A stretch of DNA of 64,000 nucleotides from Mucilaginibacter celer. GTDB lineage: Bacteria > Bacteroidota > Bacteroidia > Sphingobacteriales > Sphingobacteriaceae. The DNA lies in NCBI RefSeq assembly GCF_003576455.2, contig NZ_CP032869.1, forward strand, positions 124,001 through 188,000. Reading direction: 5' to 3'. Below are positions 24,160-27,981 of this stretch, in pieces. The number at the start of each line of letters is the position of its first letter. The stretch's first letter is position 1. The translations under genes and the position numbers were made by a program. Below the pieces are notes generated by a model. It did not search any database and was not told where the DNA came from. It worked only from the letters and a program-made list of their open reading frames with translations.

Positions 24160-27100
24160 ATGAAAAGACTGATTTCCTTTCCCCTTTTTGCATTGATGGC
24201 GGCTGTACTCATGGTACAGCCTGCCTTAGCCCAAAGTCCGCAGCTTACTGTTGATGGTAAAAGCAACAACGGCGTAAAGCTGCAGCAGTTAAAAATTGAT
24301 GTGGCTATTTATGGTAACGTAAGCCGCACCACCTGGCAAATGACCTTTGTAAACACCACCCCGCGTATTTTAGAAGGTACATTAACCTTTCCGCTAAAGG
24401 ATGGCATAAGTGTAAGCCGCTACGCGCTGGATATAAACGGAAAAATGCGCGAAGCCGTACCGGTAGACAGGGGCAAGGGCACCGTAACCTTCGAGGCTAT
24501 TGAACGCCGCCGCGTTGATCCCGGTTTGCTGGAGAAAGTAGAAGGCAATGCATTCCGCACCCGTATTTATCCTATCAATCCTAACAGTACCCGCACCGTA
24601 ATTATTGGTTACGAAGAGGAGATCCATTTAGGCGATAAAGGAAACCTGAAATTTAGCCTGCCCTTAAATGTGAAGGATACGGTGGAGAAATTTTTGTTGA
24701 ATGCCTCGGTTATTCAAAGTGCCGATGCCCCTGTAGCTGAAGGGGAGGGGGATGCTTTACATTTCGATAATCACCACAATACGTATTCGGCCTCACTGGC
24801 TAAAAGCAGCTATATGCCCAATCATCCCTTATCATTTCTGATCCCTAAGCCAACTGATGCCGGCGAGGTAATGATCCAGGCGCAGGGCAATAAATACTAT
24901 TATTTTATCAATACCCAATTGCAGGCGAAGGCCATTGGCAAACCCATGCCGCACCGCATAGGGCTGTTGTGGGATGCCTCGTTAAGTGGTGCCAACCGCG
25001 ATATTAAAAAAGACCTGGCCCTGCTTGATGCTTACTTAAAAAAGGTGAACAATGCCGATGTGGTGCTCACAACCTTTAGCAATACCATTTTAAATACAAA
25101 AACCTATACGGTTAATAACGGCAACTGGTCTGATTTAAGGAATGTGCTCGAACATATTACTTATGACGGCGCTACCAACCTGGGTAATATTAACCTGAAC
25201 CCATATAATGCCGACGAGTTTTTGCTGATGAGCGACGGCCACCAAACTTTTGGCGAAAAAACATTAAAGTTGATCAATAAACCCGTTTATTGCATCAATT
25301 CATCAGCCGTGGCCGATTACAGCAACCTGAAGCTCATCGCCCTCAAAACCCACGGCGAAATGATTGATCTGGGTGCCGATGATACCGATAAAGCCCTCGT
25401 TAAGCTTACCACCCGTCCCCTGCATTTTATAGGCATTAAGGCTGAAGCCGGTGTTGAGGAAAATTACCCGTCGTTGCCGGTGGCTGTGGGCAATACCTTT
25501 TCGGTGGCAGGCATTACCCGTAATCCTAATCAAACGCTTACCCTGCAATACGGTTATGATAACAAAGTGAGCCTTGAAAAACAGGTAACGCTTGATTTGG
25601 CCGCCAACGCTGTTGAAGGTGTGGATGTTGCCAAACTTTGGGGGCAGAAAAAGATCAGCGAGCTGGATATCAATTACGAGGCCAACCGCCAGGAGATAGA
25701 ATCGTTAGGTAAGCGTTTTGGCATCGTTACCCGCAACACCTCACTCATCGTATTAGAAAACATCGACGATTATATCCGGTACGAAATTGAACCTCCTGCC
25801 GAATTACAGGAGCAATACAATGCCATTATGAAACAACGCGGCCCGGTTGAAAAACCTCAGCGCGAAAACCTCAGCACCTCAATCGCGATGCAAACGCAGC
25901 TTGGGCAATGGTGGGATAAAGAAACCGAAGTTAAAGAGCAACCTAAACCACAACCCCAGGTTCAGCCCGACGCCAATAGAAAAGCCCGAAACCGCAGAAC
26001 AAAAACAAATGGGCAGGAGCCACCCGCAGTGGCCGAAATGCAGGTAAGGGGTAGTGCTAACGCTAATGTGGCTGATAGAGTGGCCGAACCTGCCGCGCCA
26101 ACCGGAAACCAGCTTGCCGAGGTTGTGGTAGTTGGTTACGGTGTACAAAGAAAAGTATCTGTAACCGGTTCGGTAACTACCATTAGCCCTGCATCGGTTG
26201 ACAATGCATTGGCAGGCCGGGTGGCAGGTGTCACAGCAACTCCTTCGCAGGGCGCAACAGGAGCTAATAGCCAGGTGAATGTGCGCGGTGTTAACAGCAT
26301 AACAGGTGCCCCGCCTTTATATATTGTGGATGGCGTGGCCGTAAGTAATATTAATAGTATCAACCCAAATAATGTTGCCTCAATAAACATTTTGAAGGAT
26401 GCAAGCGCCACGGCATTGTACGGTGCAAGGGCTGCTAACGGTGTAGTGGTGATCAATACCAATGGCAGCAGGCGCGCTGTGGCGGATACGGTTGCAAATA
26501 GCAGCCCGGTGCAAAATGGTGGCATTAATGTTGCCTATAACCCTGTAACTGCCGATTATTTAAAAATCATTCAAAAAACAGCCAAAGCCGCACAGTATCA
26601 AAAATATATTGAGCTCCGCACATCGTTTAGCAGCAATCCGGTTTACTATTTTGATGTGGCCGATTATTTTATAAAAACCGGTAATGCCGAACTGGGCAGG
26701 CGCATCCTGAGCAACCTGGCCGAACTTGACCTGGGCAGCTACGAACTATACAAAATGCTGGGCTATAAATTAAAACAACTGGGCGATGTAGATGGCGAAC
26801 TGTTTGCCTTTAAAAAAGTAACCGAACTGCGCCCGCTCGATCCGCAAAGCTTCCGCGATTATGGTTGGGCCCTGGAAGATGCCGGCCAGCATCAAAAAGC
26901 GCTTGATGTATTGTATACGGCCATGACCAAAAGCTATAACCCTGATGCCGACGGTTTGTACAAAGGCATCGAGGAAGTGTTTTTACCAGAAATAAACCGC
27001 ATTATTGCCCTTAATAAAGGCAAGCTGAACCTAACCGGCATTGATAAAAAGCTGATTAAGGCCATGCCGGTTGATGTGCGGATAGTGATGGACTGGAACA

Positions 27101-27465
27101 TGAACAATACTGATATTGACCTTTGGGTAACCGACCCCAATAACGAAAAATGTTTTTACAGCCATAACCGCACCGAAATTGGCGGCCGCATCTCGCGCGA
27201 TATGACGCAGGGTTTAGGTCCTGAGCAGTTCTTGCTGAAAAAAGCAATTCCCGGTACTTATAAAATAGAGATCAATTACTATGGAGACAGGCAGGCTACC
27301 ATTGCCGGCCCAACCACCATTATGGCCGAAATGTTTACCCACTACGGCACCCCGCAGGAAAAGAAGGAGATTATTGTGCTGCAAATGAAAAAAGATGCAA
27401 ACGGCGCGGTATACATCGGCGATCTGGATTTTAAGCCGGAAGGGAAGGAAGTGGCTGCAAGGTAA
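24160..27465 (+). CDS. Chimeric VIT/vWA-like protein with internal SusC-type plug domain and C-terminal DUF2135
   Basis: An 1101-residue exported protein (signal [24 protein letters not shown]). In order: VIT domain (about 30-160; [36 protein letters not shown]); a vWA-like region with a DASLS MIDAS-type motif (about 270-400); a proline/charged linker (about 575-650); a TonB-receptor plug of SusC/RagA type (about 652-768: [49 protein letters not shown]); TPR-like helices (about 790-960); and DUF2135 (about 965-1090: DIDLWVTDP...). There is no beta-barrel, so it cannot be a transporter. VIT/vWA/DUF2135 proteins are large surface or periplasmic proteins of uncertain role. The plug may bind or mimic a SusC/TonB partner; that is inference. 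Single gene, no operon partner seen. Confidence 0.85.
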
Positions 27466-27525: not shown

Positions 27526-27981
27526 ATGAAGAAAGTATTAATCATTTTTATTTTACTCGGTGTTTCAATGTGCAGTGTTTATGCTCAAACTAAAACGATT
27601 AAGGGAAGGGTAATATCTGAGTTTTTCGAAACCACGCCATTTGCGTTAATTATGATTAACGACACAGTTAAAGTTGGCAAAACAGATTTGGATGGCTTTT
27701 TTCAAGTTGAAATCCCTGTTGGGGTAAAAAAAATATCATTTTGGTATCTTGGTTTCGAGCCGGCAATAATAGCGCTTACAGATAAATGTGACGAGGCAGA
27801 GGTTGTAATGATAGCAAGCTTCACTTATGATTTTATGACACCCAAAAGGGTTGATAAACTCCGGATGAAAAGGTACAAAAAACTCCCCCAATTGCATAAG
27901 GAAGCACTTGCGAAAGGTTTATTTAAAACAGATACGGCTTGTTATACACAAGAGTTTAGGCCGTTTTACAAAAAGAAATAG
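27526..27981 (+). CDS. Small secreted protein with carboxypeptidase-regulatory-like domain
   Basis: A 151-residue protein with a signal peptide (MKKVLIIFILLGVSMCSVYAQ). The mature part begins TKTIKGRVISEFFETTPFALIMINDT and continues with KTDLDGFFQVEIPVG and ISFWYLGFEPAI, the pattern of CarboxypepD_reg-like (Ig-like) domains found at the front of SusC proteins. After about residue 105 there is a basic tail (RVDKLRMKRYKKL). It is 60 bp after the VIT/plug gene and could be co-transcribed. Function unknown; free-standing copies of this domain are common in Bacteroidota. Confidence 0.78.
   Translation: MKKVLIIFILLGVSMCSVYAQTKTIKGRVISEFFETTPFALIMINDTVKVGKTDLDGFFQVEIPVGVKKISFWYLGFEPAIIALTDKCDEAEVVMIASFTYDFMTPKRVDKLRMKRYKKLPQLHKEALAKGLFKTDTACYTQEFRPFYKKK

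Follow-up and report, generated by a model that had tools for sequence, protein, structure and literature searches.

TonB powers transport through barrels and is exploited by bacteriocins, and the colicins and pyocins are non-transporter proteins with a TonB box. The SusC homologue Bt1763 has DEVVVTG as its TonB box; when this is deleted or mutated, growth on levan suffers as it does without SusD, and the N-terminal extension (NTE) has been proposed to choose among TonB orthologues (PMC7782687). According to a review, ITIH4, an inter-alpha-inhibitor (ITI) heavy chain, inhibits proteases via non-covalent complexes after its own cleavage, and the bait region of alpha-2-macroglobulin (A2M) imitates substrates (PMC10855846). 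In E. coli A2M, bait-region residues 923–942 were unseen after cleavage (PMC4498604). Here we describe a Mucilaginibacter celer gene in which the TonB box and plug of a SusC-type transporter lie in the linker of a protein whose N-terminal half is predicted to resemble an ITI heavy chain.

The gene occupies positions 24160–27465 on the forward strand of the window, by which we mean the whole 64,000-nucleotide stretch that was analyzed, and its reading frame is intact and open across 1101 amino acids. Pfam, NCBIfam and the predicted structure together bear out the order of domains, without a barrel, that an earlier note on this DNA had described: a signal peptide, a VIT domain, a vWA domain, a linker with a TonB box and a SusC plug, TPR-type repeats and DUF2135, all encoded on the forward strand. 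The signal peptide (24160–24231, residues 1–24) appears to be of type I, ending in ALA/Q and without a lipobox cysteine, as judged by inspection of the sequence, and the protein is probably located in the periplasm. The VIT domain (24280–24612, residues 41–151) scored 77.8 bits in Pfam against a cut-off of 26.5. The vWA domain (24937–25419, residues ~260–420), delimited by structure and alignment, has no Pfam match in the window protein, though it is clear by structure. The DASLS metal-site motif pointed out in the earlier note is at residues 272–276, and the likely metal-site residues D272, S274, S276, T339 and D359 are invariant in all 77 aligned rows taken from the best 80 of at least 546 matches. 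Beyond it is the exchangeable linker slot (25921–26553, residues 588–798), delimited by the model and by linker profile matches. This slot contains the TonB box LAEVVVVGY (26113–26139, residues 652–660), assigned by sequence, conservation and a codon test, a second conserved motif, LAGRVAGV (26209–26232, residues 684–691), assigned by alignment and pattern counts, and a Plug domain (26191–26445, residues 678–762) that spans profile positions 23–107 of 107. Plug-signature motifs are found at residues 706–713, 720–726 and 744–763, and the part of the plug that is folded in the predicted model is residues 716–768 (26305–26463). The TPR-type helical repeats (26554–27012, residues 799–951) were assigned from the model and a weak Pfam match (18.3 bits, below the cut-off of 24.4), and DUF2135 (27244–27387, residues 1029–1076) scored 69.7 bits against a cut-off of 22.

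The SusC/RagA plug signature claimed in the earlier note was confirmed by the Pfam Plug profile (55.3 bits, cut-off 23.9) and by the NCBIfam SusC signature TIGR04057 (54.7 bits, cut-off 46.2). The NCBIfam SusC/RagA model TIGR04056 also matched residues 650–770 with an E-value of 3e-44, covering just model positions 76–206 of 981 and scoring below that model's whole-protein cut-off. A beta-barrel is absent: none of the Pfam matches was to a barrel model, and the predicted model has no barrel-like run of strands. The Pfam matches of the window protein likewise included no NTE (CarboxypepD_reg), no macroglobulin domain and no PF00207. There is a warning for annotation in these scores, in that the protein exceeds the TIGR04057 SusC signature cut-off, yet is not a transporter. 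Among PDB sequences, the plug matched RagA 6sli (E 7e-20) and the TPR part matched weakly; the nearest solved structures by sequence were RagA 6sli and the SusC homologue 5t3r. The nearest relative of the gene in the named collection is from M. gossypiicola (77% over the alignment). An assembly join or frameshift was rejected, since the genome is a single 7,149,106-base contig, the frame is intact and the same architecture is found in other genomes. The earlier note had offered an assembly join, or a fusion seen in no other genome, as grounds against itself; both were tested and neither occurred. The homologue search that it had proposed found TIGR04056 in 65 of 77 homologous linkers and not in 12 (E ≤0.001; best 80 of at least 546 matches), so the fusion recurs.

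The next gene (27526–27981, forward strand, 151 aa) is CarboxypepD_reg-like at 27.0 bits, below the cut-off of 32.2, a type with the fold of the SusC NTE. It begins 60 bases 3' of the VIT gene, whose own linker is without that domain. There was no conserved neighbour across 14 VIT neighbourhoods, in which genes were shared only within groups of related genomes, and a search for seven window neighbours in 85 related loci gave one match only, a weak one for a sigma factor. Because no conserved pairing was found, the CarboxypepD_reg-like gene was not counted as part of the VIT gene's system, to which it probably does not belong. In the same genome, a SusC gene (L034:1317-4405) appears to be split into frames of 362 and 667 aa.

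The model of the window protein, built from 41 rows, had a mean pLDDT of 78.4 and a pTM of 0.75, with confident VIT/vWA and TPR/DUF2135 halves. Segments with pLDDT <50 include residues 597–620, 622–706, 708–715 and 770–794, and the means of successive 10-residue blocks across residues 711–770 were 57, 84, 78, 75, 71 and 80, the plug core being folded at moderate confidence. Of the solved structures, ITI heavy chain 1 (6fpy_B, Foldseek E 7.7e-24) matched best, aligning with model residues 35–558 at a VIA-align Z of 23.5 over 482 residues with 14% identity and an rmsd of 7.3, so that the domains match 6fpy_B better than does their arrangement. vWA structures aligned at Z 13–16 over residues ~260–420, and the fold searches mostly cover the VIT/vWA part. 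In the predicted structure, the N-terminal half thus has the heavy-chain fold. In the model of a Pedobacter protein, residues 594–721, TonB box included, were unstructured; the box is disordered in both models, as expected for a linear motif.

Within the family, 30 of 201 genomes gave long matches to the window protein (E <1e-100): 7 came from the 35 of the same genus, 19 from another genus and 4 from a third. A draw of 296 genomes from the phylum gave 24. In contrast to the earlier note's statement that VIT and DUF2135 are normally in different proteins, both were present in all 12 of the proteins of this family that were scanned whole. VIT with DUF2135 is the family norm; the place of the plug is a linker slot whose content is exchangeable. 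The slot was surveyed in the window protein and 76 of 79 loci drawn from the best 80 of at least 546 matches, a selection in which close relatives are over-represented; L077 and L126 (partial) and L089 (truncated) were left out. Among these 77 linkers (best 80 of at least 546 matches), the median length was 205 residues (range 107–389), and at E ≤0.001 the SusC signature was matched by 38, the Pfam plug by 33 and CarbopepD_reg_2 (NTE) by 26. On reading, some linkers contained NTE, TonB box and plug, others TonB box and plug, and the Pedobacter linkers a TonB box plus only the first part of the plug; one of the Pedobacter type, L047, had no Plug match at E 0.1. Other linkers had more than one TonB box or the pieces in a different order (e.g. 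L099 and L122). An (I/V)DEPVG-like motif, to our knowledge not a known SusC motif, was also observed in 33 of the 77 linkers (best 80 of at least 546 matches), e.g. L064, L093 and L083, as compared with a mean of 1.6 and a maximum of 6 after shuffling; it occurs in Mucilaginibacter, Pedobacter and Flavobacterium.

On reading 22 more distant or additional proteins (L201-L220, L222 and L223; L221 ends before the linker), a TonB box was seen in 10, and the other 12 showed none. Some of these 12 hold other material in the slot: CarboxypepD_reg without a plug in L210 and L214, a weak plug-like stretch in L219 (13.7 bits, below cut-off), and, in the VIT/DUF2135 protein L209:1501-4731 (reverse strand) of another genus, a TonB C-terminal domain at 25.0 bits (cut-off 24.6) that the NCBIfam TonB model did not report at E 0.001. 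Long VIT matches were present in 3 of 40 other genomes searched of the genus of L209: L230 and L231 have NTE, TonB box and plug in the slot, and L232 has a plug in the stretch read. The slots of two distant VIT/DUF2135 proteins, L213 and L223, contain stretches with ATTYNW that had no Pfam match and that presumably recall surface-adhesin repeats. The second VIT protein of the M. celer genome, L002, had no SusC module on reading. As judged from these sequences, the SusC module is not family-wide; it is common in and near the genus and mostly unseen in distant families.

The plug appears to be exchanged. There are 112 plug matches in the genome, and the window plug was closest to that of the M. 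gossypiicola orthologue (67%), followed by those of L050, of the same-genome A2M homologue (55%) and of a same-genome SusC (53%). A tree of 78 modules over 126 columns was built from 28 SusC modules, being the plug regions recovered of 40 fetched, 18 of 30 A2M modules, 31 VIT modules and one further module; 35 of its 74 inner branches are unresolved, and its bootstrap had yet to converge. It requires 7 changes for the VIT modules and 5 for the A2M modules, in each case at least 3 of them forced by well-supported branches. As plug replacement predicts, the folded parts of L065 and L072, two close Mucilaginibacter proteins, are 91% identical and their plug cores 42%, with saturated silent sites. 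The plug core has a dN/dS of 0.19–0.23 versus 0.07–0.09 for the folded parts in Mucilaginibacter pairs, i.e., it evolves 2–3 times faster, and average identity over residues 700–770 was 32% in 41 aligned rows. The plug is whole, partial or missing, and it looks as if it has been replaced between close species. One of the relatives mentioned, L050:2043-3611 (forward strand, 522 aa), has a SusC plug, CarbopepD_reg_2 and TonB_C in one chain and adjoins a gene that looks to encode an ECF sigma factor.

The TonB box behaves otherwise than the plug. The window's LAEVVVVGY resembles the DEVVVTG of Bt1763 in sequence, and in the 77 linkers (best 80 of at least 546 matches) a strict box pattern was present in 50 and absent in 27 (shuffled mean 0.065, maximum 1; none in same-length windows of the folded parts), LxGxVAG was present in 60 (shuffled mean 0.13), and a loose box pattern was present in 64 and absent in 13, as compared with ~20 of 77 after shuffling. 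Across 41 aligned rows, identity within the box was 78–90% for L, E, V, V, V and G, 54% for the next V and 63% for Y, and the linker columns with at least 78% identity in those rows were 652, 654–657 and 659 of the box, 684, 686, 689 and 690 of LxGxVAG, and proline 595. In the Pedobacter clade (26 rows: one genus of the 201-genome family set and the named Pedobacter loci), the box (LxEVVVxGY) ranked first of 108 linker 9-mers, at 0.84 versus 0.86 for the folded parts.

Codon comparisons pointed the same way for Pedobacter, where, for a box of 9 codons and related pairs, dN/dS at dS <1.0 (12 pairs, 10 rows) was 0.056 for the box, 0.048 for the folded parts, 0.185 for LxGRVAGV, 0.25–0.35 for the remaining alignable linker and 0.47 for its gappy columns. 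The corresponding values were 0.087, 0.054, 0.154, 0.24–0.48 and 0.60 at dS <0.7 (6 pairs), and 0.080, 0.046, 0.195, 0.24–0.31 and 0.51 at dS <1.5 (22 pairs). Duplicates L086, L089 and L091 were dropped from this test and truncated L014 was kept. The test by alignment columns (26 rows) replaced one with motif-picked rows (19 of 23 kept), in which LxGRVAGV had given 0.082 rather than 0.185. For Mucilaginibacter, dN/dS at dS <1.5 (9 pairs) was 0.091 for both folded parts and box, with the plug core at 0.190 and the other linker at 0.337; the box result is weak there because in the 4 closest pairs the box gave 0.261, with one pair at 1.7, and folded parts, plug core and other linker gave 0.070, 0.228 and 0.324, respectively. 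Of the 26 rows of that test, L052 was skipped (pattern not found), L079, L084 and L087 had no plug-core label, and the start was set too early in L060 and L123. The TonB box is, by these sequence comparisons, the element kept longest in the linker, and purifying selection on it is apparent in the Pedobacter clade, which has lost the plug.

The closest plug in the genome outside the window protein belongs to a 1982-aa A2M homologue (L033:3867-9815, reverse strand; G000:C1:1309369-1315314). Its domains are MG2 (below cut-off), CarbopepD_reg_2, Plug, A2M PF00207 and bMG10; NTE, TonB box and plug immediately precede PF00207 (the plug ends at residue 1297 and PF00207 begins at 1332). Full-length homologues were found in 30 of the 201 family genomes; all 30 have a CNEQ motif of the thioester type, 25 have the strict TonB box and 30 the loose, non-specific pattern. 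Residue 1318 aligned with position 725 of the human A2M chain and residue 1338 with position 953 of the E. coli chain, which places the module at about the bait position, an approximate placement because chain positions can be offset from residue numbers by a few, and because it takes the generally given limits of the human bait region. By a hand count, VIT gene and full-length A2M occur together in 10 genomes, from 30 of each among 201, where ~4.5 would be expected; since that count ignores kinship, the co-occurrence was not used as evidence. In E. coli K-12, the DUF2135 gene yfaP sits in the cluster yfaP-yfaQ-yfaS-yfaT-yfaA, in which yfaS is an A2M gene. MagA and MagF of Pseudomonas were set aside as DUF2135 proteins, the paper's text being without that domain name. 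In the tree, the plug of the A2M homologue L140 joins one M. celer SusC (support 100/99) and not the other A2M plugs, and looks like a replacement.

From the architecture, family distribution, module exchange, conservation and predicted disorder computed here, we give about an even chance to the window protein being a barrel-less client of TonB with an exchangeable plug. We infer from them the location of the protein, TonB binding, the effect of force and any ligands of the vWA and DUF2135 halves. An ITI-heavy-chain-like protein, probably periplasmic, would be joined to its TPR/DUF2135 half by a largely disordered linker of ~200 residues, into which SusC/RagA N-terminal pieces (NTE, TonB box and plug) would have been copied more than once. 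The TonB box would be the part best kept by selection and the plug an exchangeable passenger or spacer. The exposed box would pair with the TonB C-terminal domain in the manner of SusC TonB boxes, so that the protein reaches the TonB-ExbBD motor with no barrel involved, and a pull on the linker could separate or expose the two folded halves. That TonB binds the linker is the simplest reading because a TonB-box sequence is conserved in a disordered linker and kept after loss of the plug, and the TonB C-terminal domain in the slot of L209 points to the same interface from the opposite side, albeit barely above the Pfam cut-off. If the NTE chooses among TonB orthologues, this could explain the exchange of modules. 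TonB binding, one of the options listed in the earlier note, is hence favoured, since it is the box and not the plug that is better conserved. Against this stand the conservation of the second motif, LxGxVAG, which is not part of a TonB box, the persistence of a plug in 33 of 77 linkers (best 80 of at least 546 matches), which is more than a bare box needs, and the lack of a box in 12 of the 22 distant or additional proteins, so that it is not family-wide. The 27 linkers without the strict box, the few codons and related pairs behind the dN/dS values, and the lack of a conserved neighbour count against it as well.

A rival reading is neutral capture, whereby recombination copies SusC pieces into an insert-tolerant linker and both plug and TonB box are functionless. 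The many plugs of the genome would be the source, and partial and reordered modules on reading, the faster evolution of the plug core, and the different slot material and boxless proteins of other lineages would all be expected. We nevertheless think this improbable for the module as a whole, given the purifying selection on the box in plug-less Pedobacter, motif presence far above that in shuffled linkers and the spread across several genera, although it may apply to the plug itself. We are similarly doubtful about a role as bait or integrated decoy, a decoy being among the options of the earlier note, in which the linker imitates the SusC periplasmic front end and an attacker of SusC/TonB springs a trap or signal. 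The heavy-chain fold, the inhibition of proteases by cleaved ITIH4 and the substrate-like A2M bait described in PMC10855846, and the same-genome CNEQ homologue with NTE, TonB box and plug at about its bait position all fit this role, and module exchange would fit an arms race. However, the TonB box is conserved rather than varied, and the bait role of the VIT-family linker is an analogy. The window protein is not known to be the target of any protease, bacteriocin or phage factor. Docking of the plug into a SusC barrel in trans, gating or blocking the transporter, as the earlier note also proposed, seems very improbable. The core is folded in the model and has the orthologue, L050, A2M and SusC plugs as its nearest relatives, but a plug is recognized by Pfam in only that minority of linkers, the TonB box persists in the Pedobacter clade after the plug has gone, and SusC barrels already have plugs of their own.

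If TonB does bind the linker, TonB in Bacteroidota would have a further job, at a conserved box within one of the cell's own soluble proteins. The presence of this module in the A2M homologue too, near its bait position, hints that two protease-trap-like folds follow one principle. We speculate, with little confidence, that there is a Bacteroidota class of barrel-less TonB clients, ITI-like and A2M-like periplasmic proteins whose bait slot holds interchangeable SusC front ends and is sprung by TonB pull or by attack on SusC/TonB; such clients would parallel, in bacteria, the integrated decoys known from plant immune receptors. Among the matches listed for open-licence literature on plug, TonB box, A2M, VIT and DUF2135 in bacteria, none dealt, judging by title and abstract opening, with a VIT or A2M protein containing a plug or TonB box, which is no proof of absence from print.

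The window protein has in common with the SusC/RagA transporters (TIGR04056; Bt1763, RagA) a TonB box and a plug, and differs from them in having neither barrel nor NTE and in carrying the module in mid-chain in an otherwise unrelated protein. With the ITI heavy chains (ITIH1 6fpy, ITIH4) it shares the predicted VIT and vWA fold, followed in the window protein by a disordered stretch; the likeness is one of fold alone, and the window protein is bacterial and runs on into TPR and DUF2135. As for the bacterial A2Ms (ECAM, MagD), the A2M homologue of the same genome carries this SusC module too, roughly at its bait position, whereas no macroglobulin domain was matched in the window protein. Lastly, the colicins and pyocins enter from outside, whereas the window protein, with its putative signal peptide, is the cell's own.
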